Source: Parietichytrium sp. I65-24A
Taxonomy: Eukaryota; Sar; Bigyra; Thraustochytrida; Thraustochytriidae
Direction: 5' to 3'
Assembly: GCA_012862575.1 (NCBI GenBank)
Contig: BLSF01000033.1
Span: 62,001 to 126,000 of the forward strand
DNA length: 64,000 nt
Shown here: piece by piece, positions 5,624 to 32,496 of the stretch
How positions within the stretch are numbered: the first letter of the stretch is position 1
How the letters are laid out: every line of letters starts with the position of its first letter
Position numbers and translations under genes: made by a program
The notes under the pieces: generated by a model
Told to the model about the DNA's origin: nothing
Databases searched by the model: none
What the model saw: only the letters and a program-made list of their open reading frames with translations

Positions 5624-6118
5624 TCACACAAACTCCTGGTGGATCTGGATATTGAACAAACAGGAAGGCAGAGCAGAAAACTCCGCTCGCACAGAGCATC
5701 GGATGCCAAGATTCGCGAGCACTCCGCGGATCAGTCCGCACGGAATAATGAGAAACTTTTTCGCTTCGTTCACTGAATTCTCGTCCTTGTAGTCCACATC
5801 AATCCCTGCCACCCACTGGTGATTATTATCGTGCAGCACAAACGTCCCGCGGTGGTTCGTCTGCAGCTTGTCCACGTTCTTTCCGAACACGGCTGTCCAC
5901 ATATCCTTACACAGAAATTTGACCACATCCAGAGTGCTCGAAAACTTGGCGTAATTCTTCGCGAAACGCTCCGCAAACTTGTACCCGATTTGGAATCCCA
6001 GCACCTCCAACTTGCTGAAGTCCTCTTTACTGGAATAACAGCGCACCATCTCCTGCGTCAGCAGCTGATACGCAAACCCTGACATTTGCCCGCTGGCCTT
6101 TCCCGCCACGCCACTCAT
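5624..6118 (-). CDS. TRAPPC6: TRAPP complex subunit TRAPPC6 / Trs33
   Basis: A 164-residue protein of the Bet3/TRAPPC family. TRAPPC6/Trs33 is a core subunit of TRAPP, the multisubunit exchange factor for Rab1/Ypt1-type GTPases in ER-to-Golgi and Golgi traffic. The order of conserved segments fits the family: an N-terminal helix with LLTQEMVRCY, GFQIGYKFAERF, then FLCKDMWTAVFGKNVDKLQTNHRG, and a C-terminal CGLIRGVLANLG. The last two are hallmarks of TRAPPC6 rather than TRAPPC3 or TRAPPC5. I chose the ATG at 6118 because the upstream extension in the same frame is basic, lacks homology and is not needed for the fold; the extended version would start near 6205. Length matches animal and fungal relatives. 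Confidence 0.9.
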   Translation of the reverse strand: MSGVAGKASGQMSGFAYQLLTQEMVRCYSSKEDFSKLEVLGFQIGYKFAERFAKNYAKFSSTLDVVKFLCKDMWTAVFGKNVDKLQTNHRGTFVLHDNNHQWVAGIDVDYKDENSVNEAKKFLIIPCGLIRGVLANLGIRCSVRAEFSALPSCLFNIQIHQEFV

Positions 6119-6653
6119 GACTACTTCCTCCCTTCTTTCTGGAATACCTCTGTCTCTAACCCTGCGCCGTTCTTCTTGTCTCCCTTGTTTCCGAGACCGA
6201 AACAATTAACTCTCCCAAGTCTCGTAAAGTTTCAAGTTTAAATTAAATTGGTCTCGAAACTCTCTGTCCTTACACTCCGTCTCTCGTGTTCCAAACAGGG
6301 TCAAGAATCAGGAGTGCGAATTGTGAAAGAGAAAAGACAAAAGAGAAAAGAGAGCTCCACTCTAGATGTAAACCAAGGTTGCTCTGCGTCCCGGGGCGCT
6401 TTTAAGTTATTTACTATTCACTCTGCTAGCTATGAAATCTAGCCCAGAAGGTGCGCGAGGACACTGGGACAAACGAACGTCCGTCCTCACGTGACACTGA
6501 ATAAGGGACTGCTATTGATTTGGATTGAGAGAGAGTAGGAAAAGAATGGATTCTGGGCCTTGAAAATGATTCTTTTTCGTTCTATGGACTCTCTGGACCT
6601 TGACAGAGATTCTTGAATGTTCCCTATTATTTACTATTAGACGACACCAGAAC
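6119..6653. other. Intergenic region between TRAPPC6 and the piggyBac/YqaJ gene
   Basis: It holds the TRAPPC6 promoter side and the 3' flank of the transposon-like gene. Repeated short phrases occur (TTATTTACTATT near 6409 and 6627; ATTCT...GGACTCTCTGGACCTTGA around 6570-6610). Several TTAA tetranucleotides, the target site of piggyBac elements, are present, but I could not define terminal inverted repeats. Confidence 0.4.
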
Positions 6654-9650
6654 TCACGTGTTGATGCAATGCTCGAGTCGATCTTGTGTGTGCCACATGT
6701 TAAAGCATGATGTAATGTTCCTCGAACCCTTTCTGATTTGTGTGTGCAGTGGGACGCGGCATATTTGGCACTTTGTTGTAGTCCAAACTCCGCACATTAC
6801 ACAACTTTTTTGAATCGAAGCCACCTTTTGTGTCCCATTTCCAGCTACACTGCGCAAGCCAAACTTGCATGAGTCGTGCACGCCAGTGAGACGGAGGGCT
6901 TTGAGAGTCGGGTTCTTGTTGAAGTGTTTCAACCTGGCTTGGAACTTTTTCGGCATTTCCTTCAGGAGCTCCTCAACCTCATCGCTTCGAGGACGCTTAT
7001 TTGGTCGCCCAGAGTCCAGCTCTTGTGCGATACTACTCCCAGAATCTGCAAGGTTATCGGTCCCCTGCATGTCGCGCATTCGCTTCATCTTGAGTCCTTT
7101 GAGGAGGAGTTCCTCCATCAGGTCCCAAGTGAAGTTCTGGAGCGGCTCAACCTCGTTTAGCGCGTTGCGCAGCGTCTGAATCTTCTCGATGGTAAAAGTC
7201 TGACCATTGTCACGATAGTGGCAGAGCATGCGGTGTGCCACAAAGGAATTGCTCACCATGTGCTTCAAGCCCCGGAGGACCACTTTCTGGTCAATGTCGA
7301 TCCGCGAGTCTGCTGAACCAGACACCCGCTGCACGTATCGTGTCGTGCCATCAATTCCACCTTTCATCGTGTTGTAGAAGGTCTGCACATAAGCCTTAAA
7401 GATTTTGATGGGGGGAAGAGGCCCGTTAGCTTTAATTTGCTTTGCAACTGCTCTCCAAAGCTTGAAGTGCGACTTCAAGATTGGAATTGCCTCTCTGAAA
7501 GCCTCCGGGATTTCGGGGACAGGCGTGTTCGGTTCCAGCGACTTGTGAGCCCAGTCCAGCAGTGGCCTGTACTGGTCGATGGCGTCAATGTAGTTCTCCC
7601 GGACGGTCTCGCTGACTTCCACAAAGCAACAATACTTGATTGCTTGCTTGTCAGCCACAACCAAAATGCAGTTCAGACTAGTCACCGCTGCTTGTTGCAA
7701 TATTTGCCCACGCCAGGCCCAAGGCACAGCCTCCCACCAGGCGTCGTCTCCAACTTTACAAGAGAAGTACTTCCCTCTATTGAGTGCGATTCTGTTGGCA
7801 GCCTCGATGAGGTCCAAAGAAACGCGAGTTTTAATCCCAATCGACACATGCTCTGGAGTAGTGTTCACAGCTGCACTCGGCCTGCTGACGGAAGCGATTC
7901 CGTCCGGAGAGACACCAAGGTACGGGTAGACTTTGCTCGCAAGCAAGCCAACCTCGAAGAGCTGGTGGCACCACGGCAGCTTTTGTATTCCTCTGAACAC
8001 CTTGGACTTGTTCATAGAACCCGACTTCATTGCTGGAGTCGACAAGCCCCTCTTGGAGAACCAAGACCCTGCTAGCTTCGCAGCAATTCTCGTATTTGTC
8101 GCCCCCGTCAGGGAAGGGAAACTTTCATCGTCGGGTGTCTCAGCCATGTCCAGACTTTCGTCGTCCTGCTCATGTTCGTCGTTTTCCTCGTTCTCGTCTG
8201 CGGCACTTTCATCGTCTGTGTACTCTTCATAAGTGAGAGCTGTAGTATCCAAAGGCACTTGCTCCACCACGTGTACATCCTCCGCAGTCACTTCGTTGCC
8301 TTTCACTAGATATTGCCGCGCACAGTCGTGCAGTCGGGCAAGTGCACCACCGCTCGTACCTGTCGTGATAAACTGACGCATGACAAACCAGTCTGCAGTG
8401 CGCTGCGACGCAGTCAAAGGTACCGCCGCTTCCCGGATCTTTTCTTCAGCCTTCGCCTTCTCTTCTTTGTACACCTTACTACTTGAACGCAGCGGCTTGC
8501 CGGGAAAGAATAGTGTACTCGCGCGGACATCACTTGTGACAGCGTGTTTCTTCATGCAGATCGTCTTCCTCATCTCTTCGGCTCTACCAGTTCCAGACTC
8601 CACGAATCGCAAGATTTTCGAGGGACCTTTCACATTTGGGAAGTCTCGAAAAGCGAATGCGTGTATCGTTTCCGCTTTCATAAGGCCATCTCGGTTCACC
8701 AGTACCGTTTTCCGCGCAGTGAAAATTTCACGCCCCATCAGTGAATGGTCCTCTACAATGAGTCCAGGGTCTGAGACGACGAAAGGTGTTGCGCGCTCCA
8801 TGATCTCCTTTGCTTCGTTCGGGGTTCGATCCAAACAGCTCTTCTTAGATCGTGCTGAGCCATAGCGCACTTTTTCGGCAGCAACAGAAAGTCGCATGAA
8901 GGGGTGATCTTGGTTGTCCGTAATCATACAGAACTTGAGAGAACGAGAGATGAGCTGGTAATGCTGCACGTTGTCAATTGACTGTCTCGAGACGGCTTTA
9001 ACACAGCTGAGGATGGTTCGGAACCGCATCTCTGACATGAACTCCTCATTTGATGTCATGTCTCCCTTCACAATCATGCTGGACCTGAGCAACTTCAGAA
9101 GCCGGTCTTTCGTCAGCTCGACTGCCTGGTTCCCGAGATAGATGCCAATGAAGAGCCAGATTTCGTCATCTGTCAGGCGCTTTTCCTTCAAGCCCTCAAT
9201 CTTCTCGTTCACCATGAATTCTACGCAGGCAATCATTGGCTTCGCAATTATCTCAAAGATTCCCAGACGTGAGATAGATCCAAAGTCAGCGTTGGCGCAA
9301 AGCGCTCGTGCTTTAATGTTGTTCATCACATCCTCAAGCTGCGTTTGCACCCGCCTCGCAAAGGTCTTGTTCTCAGCAACATCACTGCACATCAAAACAT
9401 ACTCTTCAGGTTCCTCCAGCAACTCCCATTGCCCGTGCTGCAGCGGAACGAGACCATCTGAAACTGCTCCCTGCACGCTGTTCACTCTTGGTACACTGCT
9501 CGAGGACGAGCTTGAGTGGTGCCTTGGATTGTATGGACAGTTTCGGTGATTCGAACGAGCGTGGTCAGTTTTGAAACACTTTGAACAGTAATCTTTCCCT
9601 GCAACACCACTAGGCCTGTTCCCGCTCTGGTTTGGTTGATCTGCAGCCAT
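6654..9650 (-). CDS. PiggyBac-like transposase fused to a YqaJ-type exonuclease domain
   Basis: An uninterrupted 998-residue frame starting at the first ATG (9650). A CCHC-like knuckle lies at about 22-38 (CSKCFK...HRNCP). Residues about 160-350 resemble the piggyBac N-terminal part, with LTDDEIWLFIGIYLG and MRFRTIL. Residues about 411-709 resemble YqaJ/lambda-exonuclease nucleases: an entry motif with WF, R and ITTGTSGG, then LGVSPDGI, IGIKTR and a WRGQILQQAAVTSL helix. The C-terminus returns to piggyBac: YNTMKGGIDGTTRYV, equivalent to the MGGVD segment with the third catalytic Asp, and a Cys/His zinc ribbon at about 950-987 ending CFNMWHT. Two positions where YqaJ nucleases normally have Glu carry Asn and Gly here, so nuclease activity is doubtful. 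Known of the families: piggyBac elements cut and paste at TTAA. It may be a mobile element gene or a domesticated derivative; element ends were not found. Confidence 0.7.
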   Translation of the reverse strand: MAADQPNQSGNRPSGVAGKDYCSKCFKTDHARSNHRNCPYNPRHHSSSSSSSVPRVNSVQGAVSDGLVPLQHGQWELLEEPEEYVLMCSDVAENKTFARRVQTQLEDVMNNIKARALCANADFGSISRLGIFEIIAKPMIACVEFMVNEKIEGLKEKRLTDDEIWLFIGIYLGNQAVELTKDRLLKLLRSSMIVKGDMTSNEEFMSEMRFRTILSCVKAVSRQSIDNVQHYQLISRSLKFCMITDNQDHPFMRLSVAAEKVRYGSARSKKSCLDRTPNEAKEIMERATPFVVSDPGLIVEDHSLMGREIFTARKTVLVNRDGLMKAETIHAFAFRDFPNVKGPSKILRFVESGTGRAEEMRKTICMKKHAVTSDVRASTLFFPGKPLRSSSKVYKEEKAKAEEKIREAAVPLTASQRTADWFVMRQFITTGTSGGALARLHDCARQYLVKGNEVTAEDVHVVEQVPLDTTALTYEEYTDDESAADENEENDEHEQDDESLDMAETPDDESFPSLTGATNTRIAAKLAGSWFSKRGLSTPAMKSGSMNKSKVFRGIQKLPWCHQLFEVGLLASKVYPYLGVSPDGIASVSRPSAAVNTTPEHVSIGIKTRVSLDLIEAANRIALNRGKYFSCKVGDDAWWEAVPWAWRGQILQQAAVTSLNCILVVADKQAIKYCCFVEVSETVRENYIDAIDQYRPLLDWAHKSLEPNTPVPEIPEAFREAIPILKSHFKLWRAVAKQIKANGPLPPIKIFKAYVQTFYNTMKGGIDGTTRYVQRVSGSADSRIDIDQKVVLRGLKHMVSNSFVAHRMLCHYRDNGQTFTIEKIQTLRNALNEVEPLQNFTWDLMEELLLKGLKMKRMRDMQGTDNLADSGSSIAQELDSGRPNKRPRSDEVEELLKEMPKKFQARLKHFNKNPTLKALRLTGVHDSCKFGLRSVAGNGTQKVASIQKSCVMCGVWTTTKCQICRVPLHTQIRKGSRNITSCFNMWHTQDRLEHCINT

Positions 9651-9743: not shown

Positions 9744-10158
9744 TGCGCCTCTCCCCGTGTCATCAACTCAGGCCGAAGGAAATTTTCAAATTCACTCTTG
9801 AAAACCCTTGATTGAAACATGTAACTCAGCTAGGGCAAAAACGGACCAATTCTGAGTAAATTTACTCACTTTGGGGCCAATCCAGGGGATGTTCACGAAC
9901 ATAATAAGGTTATCATGAGTAAATTTACTCACTTTAGGTCAAGCGGGATAAATAAAAAAATGTTGAACTGCAAGCGGGATATAGGCGAATCGGTAGATGC
10001 TGGAACCCGACGCGAGTGGACTCTGGAAGAAATGGAATGGAGTGGAACCGAAACGAGATGAATGTTTGTAAAATTTAAATTATTGCAATGGCATTTGTCG
10101 AGTGAATACGTGTGATGCCATCGATTAACGAAATACGGCGCGAAATAATTAATGTGGT
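9744..10158. other. Intergenic region with tandem palindromes
   Basis: This gap lies upstream of the piggyBac/YqaJ gene and downstream of the C2CD5-like gene. Its main feature is a duplicated 16-base palindrome, listed separately. No coding sequence was seen. Confidence 0.5.
9853..9931. promoter_or_regulatory. Two identical 16-bp palindromes, TGAGTAAATTTACTCA
   Basis: A perfect palindrome occurs at 9853-9868 and again at 9916-9931. The starts are 63 bases apart and both copies are followed by CTTT. They lie about 200-280 bp upstream of the ATG at 9650. Perfect symmetry and duplication suggest binding of a dimeric protein; the half-site TGAGTAA resembles bZIP (AP-1-like) half-sites. The regulatory role is inference. 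Confidence 0.45.
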
Positions 10159-13100
10159 CTATGGCAAGAGCGGAAAGTCCGGGAGCTTTTGCGTGTTCGG
10201 GACAATGATGACCACGTCGCCGGAGAGAGAAATCATGTTGTAGATAGACTTGAGGGCTTTTCCAGTGGACTCGCGAGGAGTCAATTTGAAACTAAGCATT
10301 GCATTTCCACGAAGTGCGAGAACATGCGCACGAGCAATCGCTTGAGCCTCGTTTAGAAACGCATGAAAGAATTGACCCAGGCCGCCGCCCTCGCGAACGG
10401 CCCATGACTCGCGGATAAAGTGCAGATTGATGCGGCCAATATATCGAACGACAGTATGATTTGGGATGTACGCGAGCGGAGATATTTCCACAGCTGGCTT
10501 CCACTGTCCAAGAGCACGCGCGATCTGGCTCCCAGGGTCAAAGTCTAACTTGCGCGAAGAAGATCGCGGCCGAAATTCGACAGAGTTTCTTACCGGGGAA
10601 TGCACTCTATCAAATAATGCTTGCCCATCGTCTTCCGGTATGGGCGGGACGTCAACCGGAGAGCCACCATCTCGAGATCTCGACTCCAGAGCAGGCTGCC
10701 CCGATGCGTACCGCCGAAAGGGCAGTGACGGCAACGAAGGCAACGATGGGACGTGCAAGTGCCTAGTAAATCGCGATGGATGAAATCGGCTAAACATGGG
10801 GGAATTCTTTGGTTTTCGGAGAAGAAGAGCGCTTTGAGATGAGCTCAGAATGTGCGGATCGGGCGGAATAGAGATCTCCTCCATCTCGCTGCCGCCGATC
10901 ACATCACTACCCGTCCCACTAGTAGCAGCGTCCAGGTCAGGTTTGACCCGGAAGCCTGCGCCCTCCGAACCGTCAAAACCGTCCACTACACCCCAATTAG
11001 ACGCGTCTGGATGGAAAGTTGCCCGAGGAGATGGCGACGCTGTTGGTGACGATCTGGACGTCGAGGAGGAGTGATGGGCGAAGAGCGGTGGGTGAATCGA
11101 AACACTTCTCATTTCTGTCAACTCCATTCTTGACAGACGCTCCTGCAAGTTTGGTCCATTGGTGGTGGACATGATCAACCGTCGCTGAAGGTTTTCCATA
11201 ATACATTTTTCAATTGCACTCGGAACCACCTTCCCGAAGCTGGTTTCATCGTTACCTCGAAATAAAGCCATGGGCGTCATCGGGGTAGTCTGGTCCAGGG
11301 TACTTTCCACTCTGTGCACGATAGCGGTGAGGAGAACCTCTACTACGTAGTCGCTGGGAATGGTCAAGTCAACGGTGAGCCCAGCCACGATACAAGGCAC
11401 GTAGGGAACTAGCTTTACAGCCAGCATGCCGTATAATTCGTGGAAGAGTTTGGCGAACTGAATATTCAGCCGCGTTAAACGGACTTCGTCCATACGCTTG
11501 CGCATCATGAGCGTGATCATTTGTTCTTTGCGACAAGCCTGCACCTGGAGAGCTGCAGATTGTGGCAACACCTCGGTGTTACAAGCAATTATTCCTGTCG
11601 GCAGCTGGCGGTCGAGGATCACTGCCATTATATCTTCGTCCGTCTCATCATCTACCTCCACCACGAATGTACGCTTGTTTCCGCGGAGCTCCTCCAGTAC
11701 GGCTTTGGCCTGCTGGACTTCGATCTGGTTTCCCTCTTCTTCTTCTGACGACGACGCAGAGGAGCTCGAGGAAAGCGAAGACGAAGAGGAGCTTGAGGAC
11801 GACGAGGAGCTCGAAGACGATCTACCATTCCGCCTCTTTCTTCGACTCAATCTTCCAGCGCGGATGGAAGAACTAGAGCTTGAGGCACTCCCAGCACGCT
11901 CGGATCGTACAGAGTCGTCTGACGAACTCGAGGAGCTCGAAGAAGATGTCTCTGAGCTTGATGAAGAAGTTGTGCTCGAGTAAGAGCTGGAGCTTCCTGA
12001 ACGCGAGTCCGACGAATTTGATGTCGACGAAGAGGAGGTTGTCGAGGACGACCCCGACGAGCGCCGTGAAGAAGAGCCCGTTGATGATGATCGAAAGCTT
12101 GTCAAACTTGACGAGTACGTCAGGTAGCTGGATCCCGAGGTCGAGGTCCCACTTCGGTTCGACAAGTCTGAGATTAACCGCGAACGCATAGACCTTGAAG
12201 AGAATGAACCATCACTGGCACGCGATCCACGACGCGAAGACGCGATCGAGGCCGAGGACATTCGCCTTGAGTGATGCTTCTTCCTCTTGTGCTTGCTCTT
12301 CCCCTTGTGCTTTTTATGGCGACTTTTACGGGACTTCTTGGTCTCCCCACTTGGTTTCGAAGACTTGAAGTTGTTCGAAGAGCCACTGGTCTGCTTTTTG
12401 ACCGTGGCCAGCGATGTCGGCTCCGGATCATGGTCGTCTGCTTCATCGTCCCCTGCATAAGCCAAATTCTTCTTGCGCTTTCCCTGAAAGCTCTCTTCTT
12501 TGAGGATTTTCCGCGATCCTTTCGGACCACCTGGTCGTCGCAATTTTTGTATGAAATTCATCTTTACTTTCTCACCTTTCACAGAACCTCGCGATTGGCT
12601 CCCGCTCATTGGCTCAACTGCAAGCCCGCCATCTTTACTTTGGAGCGCCGCGCTTGGAGCCTCCACCTTGGCTCCCAAAATTGGTGACACCAAGGAGTTG
12701 GGAGGCACTAATGTAGGATCCTGCGTAGTCGCGCTTTCTTCCTCGTTATCTTCGGCCACATTTTGCAAGGCCATGTCTACTCCGGAGGCTTTGGCAACGG
12801 CACTGCCCACTGGGCTCTTCTTCTTCACCGATTTGCTTCTAAGAAACGGCGCAAAGAGATTACTGCTCTTGGAATGGTCAGTCTCGCTCGCCCCGGTAGG
12901 TTGCGTGCCCTTTTCTTTTGACTTTGGCTTGTCCTGTTTCTCCTTCTTTGGAGGCTCAACTTTAACGTGCAGTGATGACTGCCTGACCTTTGCAAAGCTA
13001 CCGACACCTCTCTCACCTTCGCCTTCATCCCCTTCTCGGGACAAATAACCGTCCGAGCCTCCCTTGGGCAGCATCAAACTAGGGTCCGACCCGAACCGAG

Positions 13101-16100
13101 AGCGCGGTGGTGCATCCACCCGGTCCCCCTTTCCACTTGATACCATGCTAAACTCTCTTCCCAGATCTGCTGCTGCGGACAACGTGGTCTCCACACTGTT
13201 CTGCCTCTCGTGCTTGGAAGGACTACGGCCCCCAGTACTCTGCTGAGTGAGAGATGCAGAGCTGCCTGTCTGTACCGTTCCCTGATTGTTGGCCGCGTTG
13301 CCCTTCAAGTCCCTCGTGCGAGCCTTGAATCGTCGCCAGACGCTCTTCTCTGTTCCATGTTTTCCATCTGGCTGGGTATGAAGATCGACCGACATACGTT
13401 TGGCGGATATTTTGGCCAACCCAGAAGCTCCCTTTCCGGTTCCCGCAGGATCCGCCAAGTTGCCGCCTAGAGCAGCGATAGAAGGAGCACCATGTGGACT
13501 GTCGTCTCCACCCTCCGGCGAAGTAGCGCCAAGTTCATTGTCAAAGGCTGGCGAGGTAGATCTTCCATTAGCGAAGGCTGCACTGTCGCTTCCAGAATAA
13601 TCGCTTCTACCCTGTGTGTGCCTTCTCCGTCTCAGCCGCGCGAGTATTACTCTCGAGCGATGCTTCTTAGGCCGACTACCAGCGGCTCCAGAGCCTGTCT
13701 CCATTTCCATTTCATCACCTTCAGTGCCGCCCCCTGGGTCGCTTTTCAGTTCCATGTCGCTCTTCAAGCCAAAACCATCGTTGCCGGTGAGACTGTCGCG
13801 AGAAGAGTCATACATAGTGATGGGCGCATCACTCATAGCGGCTCTCGCCCCTAGTTCTTCACTCGTCAAAGGCGAATCTGTCTCAATCTTCGTTAACACA
13901 TCTGCAGGGCTGTACATTTGATGCAGAGATGATGACCCCGTAGGAGGAGACCTTCGTCTTCGAGATCGCTTGGTGGACTTGCGCCTCTTTCTGCGCAATT
14001 TTCGGCGATCTTCCCTGCGCTGGGCTTTTCGCTTTTCTTTCAAGAGCTCCATTTCCTTCTTTTTCTTCTCCGCACGCTTCGCGTCTCTGATTGCCTTCCT
14101 ATACAAATTAGCTTCCGAGTTGGCCATCTTCACGAGCCTCTCTCGATTCGCAGCAGCCATAGTCTCGATGCGGTTCTGAATTTTTATTAATTCTCTGTCC
14201 TCCTGATCTTCCACTGCGATACTGCGGTGGATTCTCAACACAGCAGGCGGAGGGAGCGCCGGGCTGTGAACGGCAGTAGCCGTGGTCACTGCAACGATGA
14301 GAGACTGTCCAATGTGGACTTGAGTCCGGAGTCCAAACGCAGCGTTCATCCCCAGCACTTTCATTTTCAGCATGAGTTGCTTGTGAAGCTCAATTTCCAA
14401 AAACACCAAGTTTTCAGAAACTGCCGACGCGTCTGCTTCTCGATTCTCCGCTTTGGAACTTAGACGCGGGCGAGATCGGCAAAGTCGCGCCTCAACCAGT
14501 GCCCCGCAACCGGTCACAGGAAGCAGGGCTGGAGGCTCGATTGTGGAGAGCAACACCTCAGGCACCCAACGCTTCCGACACAAGCCACACGGCACGAGTC
14601 TCATGTTTGCAAAGGGCGCAGCATCGTATCGATAGGGAACGTGCACCATAGAGCAAGGGAGGATTGGTTTCGGTTCGTTTGACTTGGGCTTTTTCGTTCT
14701 TGCGGCGTTGCTGGCGGCATTTGCTCCACCACTAACTCCATCCCCTTCCCCGCCGCCTTGGCCACTGTTACTCCCGCCGTGTGCCTGGATCAGCCCATCC
14801 AAAGACATTGCCTTTTCAGACATGAGCGGAGATGCGTCTTCTGCGGGACTTACTGGTGAACCCGTCGGGACGTCGAGAGCCTCCTTCTCTTGCTGCAGCC
14901 TATCAGACACGGTTTGCATCTCCGCAATTAGTGACTGAATAGTTAAGTCACTCTCGCCGTCCACTTTGTTACCACCACCGCCACCACCGTTGTACCCAGA
15001 GTCTTGACTCCTCGCAGCGCTTGGGCTGGGAGCGCCTCGGGTGAGACTTTTAGTGCTTCTAGACTGCTTGGATCTCCTCGACTGGCCCTTGGAGATTTGC
15101 CTGCGCGCTTTATTTTGGCGCGTCTTACGCTTGACAACTTCTAGTGGGTTTTCGGGTACGCTGGGCAGAAGAGCCCAGTCGGAAACATTGGGTATCTCGA
15201 GCACAAGCATACTTCGAGACTTCTTCTTAATCGACCGTCTTTTCTTAGATTTCGCCGCCGCCCAGTACCTCGCACCTCGATTTTCTAAAGTGCCAAGAAG
15301 GGATGCCCCGCCAAGGAGGCCTTCGTCCTCATGATCGGGAAAGACTGATAAAGGAGGAGGACGAGCTTTCGCACTTAGGCCGCCTTCGGGCAGTTCCACT
15401 TCCCCTGATGTTGACGCCAACGGGTCGGCGAACATCTCCAGCGCTTTCGATTGGAAGCCCTCCTCCCCCGGTCGATCGCTAAATTCCTTGCTCTTTGGGC
15501 GCTCGGCGGCGGTTGTGTGAGTCTCCGCTTCATCATGCAGGTTCGCATCAAGCTTTGATTTCTTGCCCTTTTGCTTCCTCATGCGGCGAGCATCCACGGT
15601 CCCGCTGTTCACTACGCTCCAAACTGGACGGTCTCCAAGAAGGACGGCGGCCGTCCCCGTTGCTTGGAGAATGCAAACGTCATCGTATACAACGCAATCT
15701 TCCCGGTAGCCAATCACACAGGGGCAGTGAAGAGATTTTGCGTGCGAGCGAACCTCTTCTCTCAGCTCGGACCACCACTGATCCCGAGTCTCGAGGTCAG
15801 CGACTTTGGCGGCCAATTTACCCAGAAATTTGACCGACCGAGCGGCAACGATCCCTGCCAGGCGCAGACGAACATTTAGCGGGAACACGTCCATTGTCAG
15901 CAAGACTACCTCGTTTTCAAGTCCAGGCATTTTTCGGATAAAGTTTGTATCTATTCGAGTCTGGAGCATATAGTTATCTTCGACACCAAACCCTGGTGCC
16001 ATGTGAGAGCTTTGGACCGACGGAGCCTGTCCGTCAAAGTTGGTGTCTTCCTCCCCGATTATAGAATCAACACTGCTTCCCCTTTCTGCCTTGTTGATCC

Positions 16101-17196
16101 CTGATCGAGTGTTCGAACGCACCAGCCCTCTGTGTATATAGGAGTTTGGTGGGTATCTTGCGGTTCCAAAAATGGCTCGCATGGTCCCCTGGCCATGGTT
16201 TAGTATTCGGCTTGTAAGTGCGCTTGGCTGCTGGCCAGCGTTTGCCGCCGGTGCTAACGTTGCCCCAATATTTGCGATCTCACGAACGGTGGGGCTCAAA
16301 GCAAGGCCCGCCGATGACGCACTAGGGTACAGAGACAGATTATGCACAGTAGGAAGACGCTGTGCTTGCCCCATGAGAGAGCCATCCGCGTTCGGTAAGC
16401 CCACGATACATGCCGTTCCACTACCTCGAGCAACCAATCCAGAATCCCCTTCCAAATCGAAGGTCTGCAGGTACCCTATGACAGCATTTCCCCCGAGTTC
16501 CAGGACCTTTTTGCCTATTTGTCGACGAACCTGGTTACTAAGTCTATACAGCAGGCCTTGGCGCGACTCGTTACTCTTTCGCGCCGTGCGAAAGTTGTCG
16601 CTCCACTCGTACTCAGGGTCCGTTTCCACAACGAGCTCTTCTACGAATCCAAGAACACACCCTATAGATGCAATGGAAGACTCCAACACCGAGGTTGCGA
16701 AGAAGCGAACCCCTGCAGAAGAGTCTTTGAATGGATTCTCGTCGCCATAGAAAGAAACCTTGACGATGACGTGCAACTCTCCGCGAATACCATTCAGTGT
16801 ATCGAAAATAGGGAACCAACCGTCGAGCTGGTCCTCATCATAGGCACGGGTAGGTGCACCTGAGGCCCTTCCTCGAGTGCCGTCCCAGCTATCTGCAGTC
16901 ATTTGCAGAATCGGCCCAAGCCCAATGTACACCGTCCCGATCTGATCATCAGCACTGTATACGTCATGGTCCATCACCCTGAAGACCAGCGGCTCATTCT
17001 GCAGTTCCGAGTCGTCCGCCACATTGAACCTGGTGTCTTCCTTCCAGACCGGATTGAGTGTCTTGCGCACAATGCTAGTTTGAAACACGTGATTCGCAAA
17101 CTTGACTTCAACAAACGCGTCGGTCAGGTTCGAAGTCCGGTTCATCACTGGCAGGTCTCTCGCCTCCAAAATGCGAATTTTCACTGTGGAAGGCAT
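10159..17196 (-). CDS. C2CD5: Giant C2CD5-like C2-domain protein
   Basis: A single-exon gene for 2,345 residues, more than twice the roughly 1,000 residues of animal C2CD5 (CDP138), a calcium-binding phosphoprotein needed for insulin-stimulated GLUT4 vesicle insertion. Residues 1-125 form a C2 domain (LPVMNRTSNLTDAFVEVKF, LNPVWKED, MDHDVYSADDQIG) with several likely calcium-ligand Asp residues. DGWFPIFDTLNGIRGELHV, GFVEELVVETDPEYEW and KVLELGGNAVIGYLQTFDLEG follow, diagnostic of C2CD5. The C-terminal FIRESWAVREGGGLGQFFHAF and ALRGNAMLSF segments also match. The extra length comes from low-complexity insertions: a Lys/Arg-rich coiled stretch, basic RS-like segments, and long poly-Ser runs with an acidic EEEEG end near 11700-12100. 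A role in vesicle-membrane fusion is inferred from the family. Confidence 0.85.
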   Translation of the reverse strand: MPSTVKIRILEARDLPVMNRTSNLTDAFVEVKFANHVFQTSIVRKTLNPVWKEDTRFNVADDSELQNEPLVFRVMDHDVYSADDQIGTVYIGLGPILQMTADSWDGTRGRASGAPTRAYDEDQLDGWFPIFDTLNGIRGELHVIVKVSFYGDENPFKDSSAGVRFFATSVLESSIASIGCVLGFVEELVVETDPEYEWSDNFRTARKSNESRQGLLYRLSNQVRRQIGKKVLELGGNAVIGYLQTFDLEGDSGLVARGSGTACIVGLPNADGSLMGQAQRLPTVHNLSLYPSASSAGLALSPTVREIANIGATLAPAANAGQQPSALTSRILNHGQGTMRAIFGTARYPPNSYIHRGLVRSNTRSGINKAERGSSVDSIIGEEDTNFDGQAPSVQSSHMAPGFGVEDNYMLQTRIDTNFIRKMPGLENEVVLLTMDVFPLNVRLRLAGIVAARSVKFLGKLAAKVADLETRDQWWSELREEVRSHAKSLHCPCVIGYREDCVVYDDVCILQATGTAAVLLGDRPVWSVVNSGTVDARRMRKQKGKKSKLDANLHDEAETHTTAAERPKSKEFSDRPGEEGFQSKALEMFADPLASTSGEVELPEGGLSAKARPPPLSVFPDHEDEGLLGGASLLGTLENRGARYWAAAKSKKRRSIKKKSRSMLVLEIPNVSDWALLPSVPENPLEVVKRKTRQNKARRQISKGQSRRSKQSRSTKSLTRGAPSPSAARSQDSGYNGGGGGGNKVDGESDLTIQSLIAEMQTVSDRLQQEKEALDVPTGSPVSPAEDASPLMSEKAMSLDGLIQAHGGSNSGQGGGEGDGVSGGANAASNAARTKKPKSNEPKPILPCSMVHVPYRYDAAPFANMRLVPCGLCRKRWVPEVLLSTIEPPALLPVTGCGALVEARLCRSRPRLSSKAENREADASAVSENLVFLEIELHKQLMLKMKVLGMNAAFGLRTQVHIGQSLIVAVTTATAVHSPALPPPAVLRIHRSIAVEDQEDRELIKIQNRIETMAAANRERLVKMANSEANLYRKAIRDAKRAEKKKKEMELLKEKRKAQRREDRRKLRRKRRKSTKRSRRRRSPPTGSSSLHQMYSPADVLTKIETDSPLTSEELGARAAMSDAPITMYDSSRDSLTGNDGFGLKSDMELKSDPGGGTEGDEMEMETGSGAAGSRPKKHRSRVILARLRRRRHTQGRSDYSGSDSAAFANGRSTSPAFDNELGATSPEGGDDSPHGAPSIAALGGNLADPAGTGKGASGLAKISAKRMSVDLHTQPDGKHGTEKSVWRRFKARTRDLKGNAANNQGTVQTGSSASLTQQSTGGRSPSKHERQNSVETTLSAAADLGREFSMVSSGKGDRVDAPPRSRFGSDPSLMLPKGGSDGYLSREGDEGEGERGVGSFAKVRQSSLHVKVEPPKKEKQDKPKSKEKGTQPTGASETDHSKSSNLFAPFLRSKSVKKKSPVGSAVAKASGVDMALQNVAEDNEEESATTQDPTLVPPNSLVSPILGAKVEAPSAALQSKDGGLAVEPMSGSQSRGSVKGEKVKMNFIQKLRRPGGPKGSRKILKEESFQGKRKKNLAYAGDDEADDHDPEPTSLATVKKQTSGSSNNFKSSKPSGETKKSRKSRHKKHKGKSKHKRKKHHSRRMSSASIASSRRGSRASDGSFSSRSMRSRLISDLSNRSGTSTSGSSYLTYSSSLTSFRSSSTGSSSRRSSGSSSTTSSSSTSNSSDSRSGSSSSYSSTTSSSSSETSSSSSSSSSDDSVRSERAGSASSSSSSIRAGRLSRRKRRNGRSSSSSSSSSSSSSSSLSSSSSASSSEEEEGNQIEVQQAKAVLEELRGNKRTFVVEVDDETDEDIMAVILDRQLPTGIIACNTEVLPQSAALQVQACRKEQMITLMMRKRMDEVRLTRLNIQFAKLFHELYGMLAVKLVPYVPCIVAGLTVDLTIPSDYVVEVLLTAIVHRVESTLDQTTPMTPMALFRGNDETSFGKVVPSAIEKCIMENLQRRLIMSTTNGPNLQERLSRMELTEMRSVSIHPPLFAHHSSSTSRSSPTASPSPRATFHPDASNWGVVDGFDGSEGAGFRVKPDLDAATSGTGSDVIGGSEMEEISIPPDPHILSSSQSALLLRKPKNSPMFSRFHPSRFTRHLHVPSLPSLPSLPFRRYASGQPALESRSRDGGSPVDVPPIPEDDGQALFDRVHSPVRNSVEFRPRSSSRKLDFDPGSQIARALGQWKPAVEISPLAYIPNHTVVRYIGRINLHFIRESWAVREGGGLGQFFHAFLNEAQAIARAHVLALRGNAMLSFKLTPRESTGKALKSIYNMISLSGDVVIIVPNTQKLPDFPLLP

Positions 17197-18666
17197 TGTT
17201 CAAAACCCAACTCAAGCCACGCCCAATAGATGATGCCCAGGCTTCGCGATTCCAAGTGGCGCTAGTTCTCACAGTGTTTTCCAATGTTTTCCAACCGAAA
17301 GAAGCCCGAGAAATCAAAGACGCCTGAGAAGCGTTCTGCTATATGATCTCTCGCGTCGACTGCTTGCGCGAGCGCAGATGAAACACGATCCCTACTCCGC
17401 GCGGTGCGCTACTCATGACGATATTCACGCCGGATGTCCTCCCCGATTTCTGTCTCGCCCGCCTCCGGATGCCTCCCTCCGCGCGTCACTGTAGGCCTCC
17501 CGCATTACCTCTTTCTTTCAACACGATTTGGTCCCAGTGTTGTATCCACTCGCGACAATTCACCCTCGCCACGTCACAAAAGGCTCTGTGTGACGTGAAC
17601 TTGGGCCAATATTGAGTCCAGAGGGCCTCTCTGTGACGAGAGATGAACAGTGCCAGAGCGGAACGCTTTAGCGCTCGGTGAGAGTAGTTATGGAAGTTGT
17701 AGAAGTTGTAGAAGTTGTTGGCATGAGGAATCATGAGGACATAAGAGGACATGAGGTTTTGAAGGCAGATGTTTCTCACGTGAGAATGCAGAGAAATTTC
17801 ACTGAACAGTAGAATTGATCGACCATGACAATCATGTTGAGAAACCGCGTTTCGTTCTTTCGATGCGTTTAATTTGGTTTGGTGTTGTTTGATGAAACTG
17901 GCGTCAATTGTCTGAGGTTGGCAAGAGTCCGATGGCCGCGCGCTCCTAAGCTCCCAGTCAAATGCTGCTCAACACAGTCAACGAATGCGACTGAGAAACT
18001 TGAATTTTGAAGACACGAGAATCCCACCAGAGTTTTGCCAGCCAGCTTCCGTTCAAGGACGGTTGTGGGGGGTACTTTGTTAGTATCGCGGCCCCGTCTT
18101 GAGCGGCATCTTGTCTGGAGCATCCTCCCCCACACAAACGCTGCCCAATTGTATCCGTTGAGGACTCGGACTTCGGACTTGGAAAGTGTTAGCAAGCGTT
18201 GAACTTTTTACCTCGAGCTAGAGTCAGAGTCGCACTTGCGCTTTAGCTGTAAGACTTTGCAAACAACTTCATTGTCACTTTGCTCTCCATTGTTTTTGCT
18301 CACGGTTCACGGTGAATTTGTCAAAGTAGTTCGCGAAGGCTTGGTTCATTTCTTCGACTTGGACCGACATTGGCAGACGAAAATTCCCCGCCGCTCGAAA
18401 AAGCAGCCTTGTACTCTGCGAACAACCCATATAGAGGCTGCATTCACAGTCAGCGCGCTCCTCGAAGAAAGGAATAAAGAAAAAACACCTGCTATCTGCG
18501 TTTTCGTCTAGAATAGACACAAGTTTCGTTACTTTAGGGAAGCTCGTCGATTCCGACTACGGTACATACGACTTGAAACGTGCAGGGAACTCGAGGAGGC
18601 AGATGTTGGAAACACGAGCCATTGGCAACAGCTACGCGCGTTGCGCTGCCGTTCGCTGTGGCCAAA
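17197..18666. other. Divergent promoter region
   Basis: About 1.5 kb between the C2CD5-like gene and the first 7TM gene, which point away from each other, so it should hold both promoters. It contains a GTAGAAGTT repeat around 17690-17722. Short open frames here, such as 17869..18195 minus, show no family features. Confidence 0.5.
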
Positions 18667-20181
18667 ATGATGCCTTCGAGATGGTGGACACTGGTGCTCG
18701 CATGCGGGGGCCTGTTGGCTCGCCACGCTCAGGCTGGGATTGTGGTCACGGACGCCGAAACCGGCACCTCAGCAAATGCAAGCTACTTGGTGCCTCTTTA
18801 CAGGTATTTCGGGAAACAGGACGCTGCGGGTGACCTGGTCCCTGTGTTCTTTGCGAGCGAAACTTTCGAAGAGTGGAGGTGCAGCCAAATTCAGAGGGGC
18901 GAGGTTGTAGAGTACAACATTTCGGAGAACTCGCTTGTCATTTTCATGCCGTCTTTCGATGAGACTTGCAGCGGTGCGCTTGGAAGCTGGGCAGACCTGC
19001 AATATCTAGAGGAGATTTGCCGAATGAAGGGGACACTAGTTTTTCTATTTGAGACAATTTACCCCGGTTTATGTTTGAACGGGCATCCTGGAGACCACTT
19101 TGCAGCCATGTACACCAAGAACCCGGCGCTGAAAAACTGCACGGTTTTGAATGGTCGTGATGATGGCGGACTGTTATCTTTATTGAGTTCTGGCTCAGCA
19201 TCTTTGGTGGCCAACTTCTCGGTTGACGAGAGTGTTGTCGAGAATATCGTGGACTCGGCTTTCACTCATATCATGTTTCGAGCTGTATTACCGCTCATGA
19301 ATCTTTTTGTTCTGTACCGCGCATCTCGCCACCTATACGAACGCTTCACGAGGCGAAAGCTCAAAGCCATTCACAGGATTGTCTTGCTTCTGAACATCTT
19401 CCTCGTGTGTTTCTACATCGTTACAGAAGCGATGGGGACCGTGTTTATTTCTGACCTAATCAAGTACAAGACAGCCTTGACCCTGGGGCTCTCGTTGTAC
19501 GGCATCAGTGTGTCCAGCGACTTTCTTCTGGCCATTTTGTATAGTGAGCTGACCAGCACTTTTGTGATCAAGCGAACTGGGAAGCCTCAAAACAGAAGGA
19601 ATGAGGTATACTTCGTTATTGCGTCTACTCTTGCAGTCTTGGACATTTACTCAGCTTATGCGACCACAAAGGTCCACATGGGGAATTATTTTACGACGAT
19701 TGTGTTGATTCCTTTATTGAACCTTTTTTTTCAGGTTCTTGCCGTAGGGTTTCTCTCCTGGCAAGTTAGAGGAGTGCTTCGCCTCTTGGAGTTGAACACA
19801 AGCTCCAACAAGCCACTTTCGGCTGATTCAGCAACGCGACTTTTGCATGTCCAGCTTTCATACTGGATCAAGTGCACGATCTTCGCTTCTCTGTTAGCGA
19901 CCATTGCGTTCTTACTCTACATGTTCAATGGTCGCTCGAACCCGTACCTGTACTTTGTCGTGTTTTACATCTTCAAGGTTGCGAGGTGTGCCAACTCTCT
20001 CAGCCAAGTCGAGTCTGCCAAACTCCCCAAATACAGAAAATCTGGAAGCTCCTGGCTCCACTCAAGAATACATCCGGGAAGCACCTCCAAGCAACTTAAG
20101 ATTGGTGTCGGAAGCCACCAAAGCCCGATGAACGGCCAGAATTCTTCCGCAGTTGCAAGTCCGCAAGGGGTAAGCAGCTAA
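18667..20181 (+). CDS. Orphan seven-transmembrane protein with cysteine-containing ectodomain, copy 1
   Basis: A 504-residue protein starting at ATG 18667, chosen because it begins a clear signal peptide (about 1-23, ending AQA). An ectodomain of about 180 residues follows, with N-glycosylation sequons and conserved cysteines (ETCSGALGSW, YPGL, GHPGDHFAAMY, LKNCTVLNG). Then come seven hydrophobic segments, with a short basic loop after the first and a C-terminal tail rich in Ser/Lys. The segment SLSQVESAKLP after the last helix is shared with the next gene. The topology, extracellular N-terminus plus seven helices, is that of a receptor, but I recognise no known GPCR class motif. It is a tandem duplicate of the gene at 20815..22308. 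Function unknown. Confidence 0.8.
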   Translation: MMPSRWWTLVLACGGLLARHAQAGIVVTDAETGTSANASYLVPLYRYFGKQDAAGDLVPVFFASETFEEWRCSQIQRGEVVEYNISENSLVIFMPSFDETCSGALGSWADLQYLEEICRMKGTLVFLFETIYPGLCLNGHPGDHFAAMYTKNPALKNCTVLNGRDDGGLLSLLSSGSASLVANFSVDESVVENIVDSAFTHIMFRAVLPLMNLFVLYRASRHLYERFTRRKLKAIHRIVLLLNIFLVCFYIVTEAMGTVFISDLIKYKTALTLGLSLYGISVSSDFLLAILYSELTSTFVIKRTGKPQNRRNEVYFVIASTLAVLDIYSAYATTKVHMGNYFTTIVLIPLLNLFFQVLAVGFLSWQVRGVLRLLELNTSSNKPLSADSATRLLHVQLSYWIKCTIFASLLATIAFLLYMFNGRSNPYLYFVVFYIFKVARCANSLSQVESAKLPKYRKSGSSWLHSRIHPGSTSKQLKIGVGSHQSPMNGQNSSAVASPQGVSS

Positions 20182-20814
20182 AGGAGGAATCTTTCACTTC
20201 AACCCGCCCACTCTCAGATAGCTTTCTCGGTACCGGTATGGATCTGACTCCTTTTTTCGAAACCCAATCAAACCCAATTGAACTTCCTTGGCACACGATA
20301 ATGCCGAGTCTTGACTTCTATAGCCGTTTAAAATATACGTTGCAGGCTGCGCGGGCCACTATCATGATTTCTCTGAAACGCGCTGGTAGTGAAGTACTAT
20401 AGCAGTACCCGCTCAGTCAGTACTCCCAGACTTGTACTCGACTCCAAAGTTTTGTCGGAAGAGAGGTAACCTAGTGTTGGAGGCTTAGCCCGTGAATGGG
20501 TTGCCAAAACTGTGCTGGAACGCCCTTGGGGAAGCTCGCTCTTGGGACATTGTAAATTGTTTCACACATGTTTCATGAGCGGCGGTGCTCTTAGTATGGC
20601 CTTGTATTTAATGCTTCGTAAGCCCGTGCGGCAGAGTCGGTCTCACATCGCCACTGGAGTTTGTTACTCCATCATCACTCCTATACCGTGCGATCATGAT
20701 GCGTCAGTAGCTTTCTCTTTGAACACGGTCAATCAAGAAGTGCTGCTGCCGAAATAATTCTCTTCGAAGGCTTGGCCGCCTGTGCGAGCCAAGCGAGCCA
20801 AGCGAACACAGGAG
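20182..20814. other. Intergenic region between the tandem 7TM genes
   Basis: A 633-bp spacer between two same-strand paralogues. Some open frames cross it, but none resembles a third copy. It presumably holds the promoter of copy 2. Confidence 0.5.
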
Positions 20815-22308
20815 ATGCCGAGCACCCTCACGCTTGCTTTTGTGTGGGTGGCGGCAGGCTGGGCAGTGCAGTTGTCCGGCGCAACATTTGTCGCCCGGGA
20901 CACGAGCTCGCTGCAAGAGCTCCAGATTGATTACGTTGTGAACGTCTACGAGGAGTTTGGAAAACAACAAATCCAGGCTGAAAATGTGCCCGTGTTCATT
21001 CTGGACGAGTCAATAAACGAGAAGCGATGCGAGGCGCTGCAGAACGGATATGCTCTCAACTACAGCGAGCTTGGAATCACTCGCGACACAATAGTTCTCC
21101 TGCACCCCGGCTTCGATGACACATGCAACGGTGCTTTGGGCACGTGGTCCACTATGGAATATCTTCGTGACTTATGTGCCATGAGCGACATCTTCGTGTT
21201 TGTTTTTGAACCGACGACATACCCAGGGCTCTACGCGTTTGGGCATCCTGGAGATCACTTTGCCTCCCTGTACGCTAGTTACACAGGTCTGCGCGAATGT
21301 TCTATGCTAAACTTCGCGCTCCCAGACCAGGCAGCGTGGGACTTCCTTGCAAACAGCCCCGATCTGGTCGGGAACATCTCACGAGATGACTCCAAAGCCG
21401 TTCAAATTTACGAGTCTTTCATTGTACAGTTCATGTTCCGAGGAGTGCTGACAACAGGGTCCTTCGCGGTTTGCGCTCGCGCAGCAGTAAACCTCTATCA
21501 AAGGTACAAACACAACAAGCTTCCTGCAGTCCACGTCCAGGTGCTGGTTCTCAATTTGGTCATTATGCTCTTCTGCGGTATACTGGAAATCTTTGGAACA
21601 ACTTTCATCTCGGACACCTTGCCGTTTGGACTTACAATCGCGATGTATATGGGGGGCTTTGGGACCGGAGTTGCGAGTGACTACATTGTGGCGGTCATGT
21701 ACAGCGATCTCACCGGCGCAGTCATGTTCCGCAGGTCCGGACAAGCTATGATCAGACGTCGATGGTTGTATTTCGCCATGGCCTACGCGCTAATTGGTCT
21801 GGACTTTGCGACCTGTACTCTGCTCGGGCACCTGACTCTCCAAAGGCTCTGGTTCGCCCTGGTGATTCTCCCCTTGTTGTGCACGTTTTCGCAAATATTT
21901 GTTCTTGTGTTTCTCGTAAAACAAACGCGTAGATTGCTTCGCCTCCTGGAATACCAACAGTCCACGGAAACCAATGCAAGCACAAGGACAACGAGCCTAC
22001 TTCACAGACAGCTGTCGTTTTGGATAAGATGCACCGTCGTAAGCTCCATGCTTGGAATCGTCGCGATATGTATGTTTTTCTCTCGCATCGTCTTCATGGG
22101 GCCGTGGGCGTATCTAATGACGTTTTACCTTTTCCGGATCAGTCGCGTGGCGACAAGTCTCAGCCAGGTTCAGTCCGCCAAACTTCCTGTGTCACAAGGC
22201 AACCGCGTCTCCCCGTCCATCGAAGAGTCCAGGGCTTCCGCCAAACCCAAGCCTTCTGCTGCTAGTCCCGACAGCCCCGATACCCCCACATCCCCAGCCC
22301 CTTATTAG
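20815..22308 (+). CDS. Orphan seven-transmembrane protein with cysteine-containing ectodomain, copy 2
   Basis: A 497-residue paralogue of the preceding gene. The ATG at 20815 begins a signal peptide of about 24 residues. The ectodomain repeats the same anchors: VPVF, then HPGFDDTCNGALGTW, a YLRDLC motif, FVFEPTTYPGLY, FGHPGDHFASLY and LRECSMLN. Seven hydrophobic helices follow (beginning about residues 203, 238, 268, 303, 325, 378 and 400). The last ends in ISRVATSLSQVQSAKLP, which copy 1 matches closely. The tail is Ser/Pro-rich and could be phosphorylated. The two copies are clearly homologous but diverged, so the duplication is not recent. A cell-surface receptor or transporter-like role is inference from topology only. 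Confidence 0.8.
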   Translation: MPSTLTLAFVWVAAGWAVQLSGATFVARDTSSLQELQIDYVVNVYEEFGKQQIQAENVPVFILDESINEKRCEALQNGYALNYSELGITRDTIVLLHPGFDDTCNGALGTWSTMEYLRDLCAMSDIFVFVFEPTTYPGLYAFGHPGDHFASLYASYTGLRECSMLNFALPDQAAWDFLANSPDLVGNISRDDSKAVQIYESFIVQFMFRGVLTTGSFAVCARAAVNLYQRYKHNKLPAVHVQVLVLNLVIMLFCGILEIFGTTFISDTLPFGLTIAMYMGGFGTGVASDYIVAVMYSDLTGAVMFRRSGQAMIRRRWLYFAMAYALIGLDFATCTLLGHLTLQRLWFALVILPLLCTFSQIFVLVFLVKQTRRLLRLLEYQQSTETNASTRTTSLLHRQLSFWIRCTVVSSMLGIVAICMFFSRIVFMGPWAYLMTFYLFRISRVATSLSQVQSAKLPVSQGNRVSPSIEESRASAKPKPSAASPDSPDTPTSPAPY

Positions 22309-31821: not shown

Positions 31822-32496
31822 CGCTGGGGGAAAACGCTGCGGACGCTGCGGGTTGGCGGATCGGGGTGAGCCTTTCGGACTGGGTGGACTACTGAGTAAC
31901 TGAGTGACTGACTGAGTAATGACGAAGAAGAGAGCGTTACGACGCGGTCAATGGTCGATGGTCGATGGTCGATGGTCGATGGTCAATGGTCCATGGTCCA
32001 TGGTCAATGGTCAATGGTCAATGGTCAATGGTCAATGGTCAGTGGTCAATGGTCGATGGTCAATGGTCGATGGTCAATGGTCAATTGTCAATGGTCGATT
32101 GTCAATGGTCGATGGTCAATGGTCCATGGTCCATGGTCCATGGTCGATGGTCAATGGTTGATGGTCAATGGTCAAATGTCAATGGTCAATTGTCAATGGT
32201 CGATTGTCAATGGTCGATTGTCAATGGTCGATGGTCCATGGTCGATGGTCAATGGTCAATGGTTGATGGTCAATGGTCAAATGTCCATGGTCAATTGTCA
32301 ATGGTCGATTGTCAATGGTCGATTGTCAATGGTCGATGGTCAATGAATGCCAGCTCGAGGCTTGACGAGCCGCGCGAATGCCAAAAACAAAAAGAGCTTG
32401 AAAGGAAAAGATTGTTAATAGGGATCCCCTCCCTCAGCTGGCAGGTTGCTTGCTCGGAGACTGGATTCCCGCAGGCCCGAAAAGCTGGGGCTTTTT
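31822..32496. other. Intergenic region with heptamer minisatellite
   Basis: Besides the 400-bp heptamer array, it contains short GACT/GAGT repeats at about 31890-31918. It ends at the stop codon of the LRR gene, so the array lies just beyond that gene's 3' end. Confidence 0.6.
31946..32345. repeat. Heptamer minisatellite, unit ATGGTCN
   Basis: About 57 head-to-tail copies of a 7-base unit, ATGGTC plus a variable seventh base (A, G or C). Runs of the A form and of the G form alternate, and a longer repeating phrase with ATTGTCA variants appears twice near 32180-32230 and 32285-32335. Because the unit is 7 bases and stop-free, all three plus-strand frames stay open with a seven-residue WSMVxGx pattern; this is a by-product, not a gene. 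Confidence 0.95.

Follow-up and report, generated by a model that had tools for sequence, protein, structure and literature searches.

The locus described here raises the question of whether a transposase of the piggyBac superfamily has taken up a nuclease domain and, if so, what has become of its catalytic core. It is a single uninterrupted open reading frame (P0001) in the thraustochytrid Parietichytrium sp. I65-24A, from which 64,000 nucleotides were analyzed (contig BLSF01000033.1, positions 62,001 to 126,000 of the forward strand; this whole stretch is referred to as the window). The frame lies on the minus strand at window positions 6654 to 9650, runs from ATG to stop, and translates into 998 residues. 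An earlier note on this DNA had described one frame at this place and quoted several of its motifs; the frame is intact as described, and the motifs are present (LTDDEIW at residue 159, YNTMKGGID at 759, CVMC at 950, and CFNMWH at 982). The reading that we favor, with a probability of about one-half, is that the frame encodes an intact protein derived from the piggyBac superfamily, without recognizable element ends, in which a YqaJ-type PD-(D/E)XK domain lies before the third catalytic Asp, at approximately the position of the piggyBac insertion domain. We consider a domesticated DNA-binding protein more probable than an active transposon.

Three blocks of the protein resemble piggyBac. In Pfam scans of 16 pieces of the protein (all E-values refer to 24736 models), residues 60 to 430 match DDE_Tnp_1_7 with an E-value of 0.066, and residues 121 to 227, a piece picked after that match, do so with an E-value of 0.011 (aligned residues 147 to 223; profile positions 22 to 95 of 349). 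This N-terminal segment (LTDDEIWLFIGIYLG ... MSEMRF; positions 8970 to 9290, minus strand) was also aligned with a two-sequence profile of piggyBac and piggyBat, both sequences having been verified against the Protein Data Bank (PDB). It gives an hhalign P value of 0.0023 and a semi-global score of 28.9, which is reached by 1 of 1000 shuffles and by none of 914 control windows. Farther along, the block at residues 749 to 815 (positions 7206 to 7406, minus strand) contains GGID, whose Asp767 corresponds to the third piggyBac Asp, and NSF at residue 801. From YNTMKGGID to NSF, this block scores 20.7 (as high in 2 of 1000 shuffles and 1 of 1011 control windows), and it is in the piggyBac register, with 34 residues from Asp to NSF compared with 33 in piggyBac. 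The third block is a C-terminal Cys/His region like the zinc region of piggyBac (residues 950 to 990; positions 6681 to 6803, minus strand), and the last 58 residues match zf-Tnp_2 with an E-value of 0.091 over profile positions 14 to 59 of 60. Because DDE_Tnp_1_7 and a zinc ribbon had been predicted beforehand and are found in the correct place and order, these two family matches gain weight; with the families named in advance, their E-values taken singly amount to P values of about 4e-7 and 4e-6, respectively.

Several results weigh against this interpretation. The whole 998-residue protein matches no Pfam family at an E-value of ≤10, and the best scores of the pieces, 15.5 bits for DDE_Tnp_1_7 (residues 121 to 227) and 13.8 bits for zf-Tnp_2, are below the curated cutoffs of 22.4 and 24. 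Pieces of this protein also match unrelated families with comparable E-values (Ephrin_rec_like, 0.025 to 0.041; ANCHR-like_BBOX, 0.014; zf-A20, 0.02; HEPN, 0.036), so no single E-value of about 0.01 to 0.09 can be taken as proof. One of the 1011 control windows beats the GGID block, for which hhalign returns a P value of 0.24 on the correct motif, and the first and second piggyBac catalytic Asp residues were not located in profile alignments of the protein. Pairwise BLOSUM alignments are also poor: shuffles score as high as the N-terminal segment in 22 of 500 (piggyBac) and 79 of 500 (piggyBat) cases, as the C-terminal segment in 43 and 316 of 500, and as residues 60 to 860 in 141 and 191 of 500. 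For the middle of the protein, the corresponding pairwise counts are 135 and 288 of 500. Furthermore, zf-Tnp_2 is absent from the Pfam listings for 69-residue and 52-residue cuts of the C-terminal end. The whole protein does align with the piggyBac/piggyBat profile (2 of 1000 shuffles and 0 of 62 control windows as high), with its N-terminal half off register. The earlier claim of piggyBac sequence at both ends is therefore weakly supported, in that DDE_Tnp_1_7 and zf-Tnp_2 occur in the right order but both below their cutoffs.

The middle of the protein, residues 411 to 705 (positions 7536 to 8420, minus strand), resembles the YqaJ/lambda exonuclease family in profile alignments and has an acidic linker inside it at about residues 479 to 509. 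The sources of the profiles were 11 annotated phage exonucleases (10 of 60 listed rows were retrieved) and 19 viral YqaJ loci related to one of them. The 24-sequence profile consists of 14 of the 19 viral loci and 10 of the 11 phage exonucleases; L042 (the same as L010) was left out, as were L050, L051, L054, and L055, which are close to loci that were kept, and L017 was held out as a control. Aligned end to end in semi-global mode, the middle scores 17.8 against this profile, a value reached by none of 1000 shuffles (mean, -7.7; standard deviation, 4.0) and above the best of 348 control windows from 110 frames, which is 13.6. Residues 531 to 760 alone score 12.4, compared with a best of 8.5 among 772 control windows. 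The hhalign P value against the YqaJ profile is 0.0015 for the middle and 0.12 for an N-terminal piece used as a control. Ten phage exonucleases share 11 invariant columns; as read from the alignment, 8 of these are retained in order (W, R, G, S, P, D, K, and Q), the exceptions being the second Gly, the helix Glu, and an Ala.

True members of the YqaJ family score far higher on the same scale, which speaks against close kinship: the held-out L017 scores 80.3, and the 4 of the 24 profile members for which leave-one-out scores were computed reach 107, 150, 169, and 211. Since the held-out members score 80 to 211 and the middle of this protein scores 17.8, it is a remote relative at best. In addition, neither the whole protein nor any of the 16 pieces has Pfam YqaJ (PF09588) among its listed families. 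Local HMMER alignment without filters gives P values for residues 401 to 790 of 2.6e-4 with the first profile and 1.5e-3 with the 24-sequence profile (overall span, 2.6e-4 to 5e-3), and the score comes mostly from one 20-residue stretch around SPDG. That the middle is YqaJ-like, as had been proposed, receives weak support from these comparisons, with a profile score above that of every control on one side and the missing Pfam match on the other.

Structure prediction gives models of low confidence. A single-sequence model of residues 405 to 780 has a predicted local distance difference test (pLDDT) score of 40.2, and its best structural match has an E-value of 0.11; there is no nuclease of the PD-(D/E)XK fold among the 50 matches listed, a further point against a nuclease relationship. 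In this model, made without YqaJ input (pLDDT, 40), the end of the domain runs helix (RGQILQQ), strand, strand, long helix, which we take to be the same order as in lambda exonuclease. When residues 411 to 735 were modeled together with 15 phage exonuclease rows, the pLDDT was 50.2 and the predicted template modeling score (pTM) was 0.50, a low-confidence result biased by the supplied rows. Foldseek matches to that model include nucleases in 13 of the top 14 positions (SSO0001, Rai1, RecE, MGME1, AdnAB, and ACE1), with a best E-value of 0.21, and this outcome is partly circular. All 13 are PD-(D/E)XK folds, and 2 of them, chains of Rat1-polymerase complexes, we take to be Rai1. In the MAFFT alignment used for this model, the strand Gly605-Lys607 is offset by six columns from the phage Glu-x-Lys, which may have lowered the quality of the model.

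The metal site expected of a YqaJ nuclease is incomplete. Asp583 of SPDG (positions 7902 to 7904, minus strand) and Lys607 are retained in the alignment, and both expected Glu residues are absent. Gly605-Ile606-Lys607 (positions 7830 to 7838, minus strand) stands in place of Glu-x-Lys, and the helix Glu corresponds to Leu558 in computed alignments and to Lys548 or Asn547 by spacing; none of these is acidic. Asn and Gly had been named earlier at the two Glu positions, and Gly605 agrees with this, but computed alignments put Leu558 rather than Asn at the other position, where Asn547 or Lys548 falls by spacing. As both nuclease Glu residues are absent, the proposal that the protein uses a different cutting chemistry is unlikely to be correct, and, judging by its residues, the YqaJ fold is probably inactive as a nuclease. 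A further reading, which we consider highly improbable, is a transposase of the piggyBac type in which a PD-(D/E)XK nuclease has taken the place of the insertion domain and is still active by way of a relocated acidic residue, e.g., Glu600. If that were true, one enzyme would carry two cutting sites, with RNase H chemistry serving excision and the YqaJ site trimming or opening the ends.

In piggyBac, the insertion domain is located between the second and third catalytic Asp residues. Because Asp767 follows the YqaJ-like stretch and residues 285 to 400 (positions 8451 to 8798, minus strand) are long enough for the first two Asp residues, the YqaJ-like insert could lie in the slot of the piggyBac insertion domain itself, with the core left intact. 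Residues 285 to 400 may form the first half of the RNase H core; within them, Asp301 and Asp374 were picked by eye as candidates, with a spacing of 73 residues compared with 78 in piggyBac. We rejected their equation with piggyBac Asp268 and Asp346 as evidence, since it is a by-eye alignment and the profile tests aligned other residues. No test supports this first half: in two profile tests, equally high scores were obtained from shuffles (248 and 105 of 1000) and from control windows (27 of 144 and 18 of 149), as they were with three gap settings (shuffles, 28, 102, and 10 of 2000; control windows, 42, 89, and 41 of 1925). The proposed location of the nuclease at the second catalytic Asp is therefore neither shown nor excluded, because that Asp could not be placed. 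The related claim of a DDE core replaced or interrupted by the nuclease is only half borne out: the insert does precede Asp767, but residues 285 to 400 could still hold the first two Asp residues.

Terminal inverted repeats and TTAA target duplications had been proposed as a check; the flanks of the frame (482 bp and 508 bp) contain neither above chance. The best inverted 18-mer joining the two flanks matches at 14 of 18 positions, and 12 shuffles gave 13 or 14. The best of 15 flanking TTAA pairs matches at 7 of 16 bases. Other inverted repeats are present, none of which links both flanks with TTAA. A repeat search of the window identified two 23-bp direct repeats, each with the perfect palindrome GAGTAAATTTACTC, at positions 9853 to 9875 and 9916 to 9938. 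They are 63 bp apart, about 200 to 290 bp upstream of the ATG of the 998-residue frame, and no others occur in the window at ≤2 mismatches (expected number, 0.19; at least two in 1 of 100 shuffles). Since the long frame is intact without recognizable ends, the sequence favors a gene retained by the host over an element.

The combined evidence can be read in other ways. The frame might belong to a mobile or recently mobile element whose RNase H triad is whole (candidates Asp301, Asp374, and Asp767), in which the YqaJ-like stretch is an enlarged insertion domain that helps to hold the ends, the ends themselves having been missed. The intact frame, the by-eye Asp spacing, and the two palindromic repeats upstream would fit this, but the flanking 18-mers are no better than those of shuffles, the TTAA pairs agree at few positions, and the first two Asp residues find no support in any test; we regard a mobile element as unlikely, although it is the second most probable reading. 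A less probable explanation is that the gene is derived from piggyBac and carries in its middle a lineage-specific insert that has no relationship to YqaJ, with SPDG and the other motifs present by chance. The missing Pfam YqaJ match, the lack of a nuclease among the listed matches of the single-sequence model, and local HMMER P values of only 2.6e-4 to 5e-3, with the score concentrated around SPDG, are all consistent with such an insert. It is more difficult to reconcile with the end-to-end profile score, which exceeds all 1000 shuffles and all 348 control windows, and with the occurrence of W, R, G, SPD, K, and Q in order at 8 of 11 invariant columns. We give still less credence to the idea that the protein is not derived from piggyBac at all and is another DDE-type or an unrelated protein with a zinc-binding tail and short shared motifs. 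The unrecognizable first half of the catalytic core, the unspecific matches of the zinc region, and the weak pairwise tests point in that direction; that three piggyBac-like blocks occur in the expected order and in register argues against it.

If the protein is, as we favor, a piggyBac-derived one carrying a worn YqaJ-type domain, its N-terminal segment and C-terminal zinc region may bind DNA in dimeric form as those of piggyBac do, with dimerization through the N-terminal part. The worn YqaJ-like domain would then serve as an extra DNA-gripping module rather than as a nuclease, and the protein may now have a host function such as DNA binding or regulation. Of the interpretation in the earlier note, the chimeric architecture stands, as does the suspicion that the protein is DNA-binding or domesticated.

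Searches for relatives yielded none that we accept. P0001 in viral and genome contig collections, and two pieces of it in viral contigs, gave no relatives in searches that rely on exact-peptide seeding, so reach close relatives only, and covered no collection of eukaryotic genomes; the piggyBac/piggyBat pair likewise had no matches in the viral and genome contig collections. A tblastn search of phages returned 7 records with E-values of 0.6 to 4 over residues 625 to 691, in small phage proteins of 142 to 145 residues, and we took these as chance. The pattern YN..KGG.D was found in 5 viral stretches, which are chance occurrences, judging by their frames, and DExM..KGR was found in 23 stretches, one with a tblastn match to piggyBac at an E-value of 0.096 that was also taken as chance. 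QRT..WF..R..TG was found in none. A PF13843 search gave no positives among 3 records or among 14 control genomes and is hence uninformative, and a PF09588 search was positive in 0 of 3 records compared with 2 of 14 control genomes. No piggyBac-YqaJ fusion was found in the literature searched, in which subscription journals are mostly not included.

The surroundings of the frame are eukaryotic. It is flanked by a TRAPP subunit gene (positions 5627 to 6172, minus strand; Pfam TRAPP E-value, 4.3e-36) and by a C2CD5-like gene (positions 10159 to 17196), both on the same strand as the frame itself. The C2CD5-like gene encodes 2345 residues in a single frame with long Ser- and Lys-rich stretches. 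The third-position GC content of the 998-residue frame is 0.59, and this value and its codon preference are inside the range of 14 other frames in the window. Long uninterrupted frames in the window suggest that the source is a protist with few introns. By reading, P0001 also has a putative zinc-knuckle-like CxxC...H...C motif at residues 22 to 40 (positions 9531 to 9587, minus strand), a region for which Pfam gives only zf-A20 and ANCHR-like_BBOX (E-values, 0.014 to 0.02), and a possible nuclear localization signal, RPNKRPR, at residues 882 to 888 (positions 6987 to 7007, minus strand). Elsewhere in the window, adjacent plus-strand frames at positions 18580 to 20181 and 20782 to 22308 have translations that resemble tandem paralogues of a membrane protein, and a Pfam scan gives them no family at an E-value of ≤1e-5. 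Another plus-strand frame (positions 31965 to 32735) begins with short degenerate repeats of WSMVNGQ-like units.

Insertion domains of RNase H-type transposases vary widely, and to our knowledge their origins are mostly unclear. If our reading is correct, a nuclease fold that has lost its catalytic Glu residues, in or near the insertion slot, would represent a route to a structural or DNA-gripping part. Compared with piggyBac (Trichoplusia ni; PDB 6x67 and 6x68) and piggyBat (PDB 9c0f), this protein has a YqaJ-like stretch in the gap between the candidate second Asp and the third, which spans about 390 residues here and 101 in piggyBac; the first half of its core is unrecognizable, and no ends were found. 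It is like the YqaJ/lambda exonuclease family (PF09588) in the order of motifs along the domain and in retaining the Asp of SPDG and the Lys of ExK, and unlike that family in lacking both Glu residues, in scoring far below its members, in having a long acidic linker inside the domain, and in being nested in another protein. The ISL2EU elements are eukaryotic DNA transposons with a Harbinger-like transposase and a separate YqaJ frame (PMC4482050 and PMC9179366). They likewise pair a DDE transposase with a YqaJ domain in a eukaryote (PMC4482050 and PMC9179366), but here there is one fused frame, between TRAPP and C2CD5-like neighbors. A parallel in layout is provided by the Dada elements of Laccaria bicolor and Ectocarpus siliculosus, in which, according to the published account, a DEDDy exonuclease with its four catalytic residues retained follows the second catalytic Asp of a DDE transposase and the elements have defined targets (PMC3706591). 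By description only, Dada differs from this protein in belonging to another superfamily and in having a DEDDy-type nuclease with its catalytic residues (PMC3706591). If the reading favored here is correct, P0001 would complement Dada, whose nested nuclease, as that account describes it, has retained its catalytic residues (PMC3706591).

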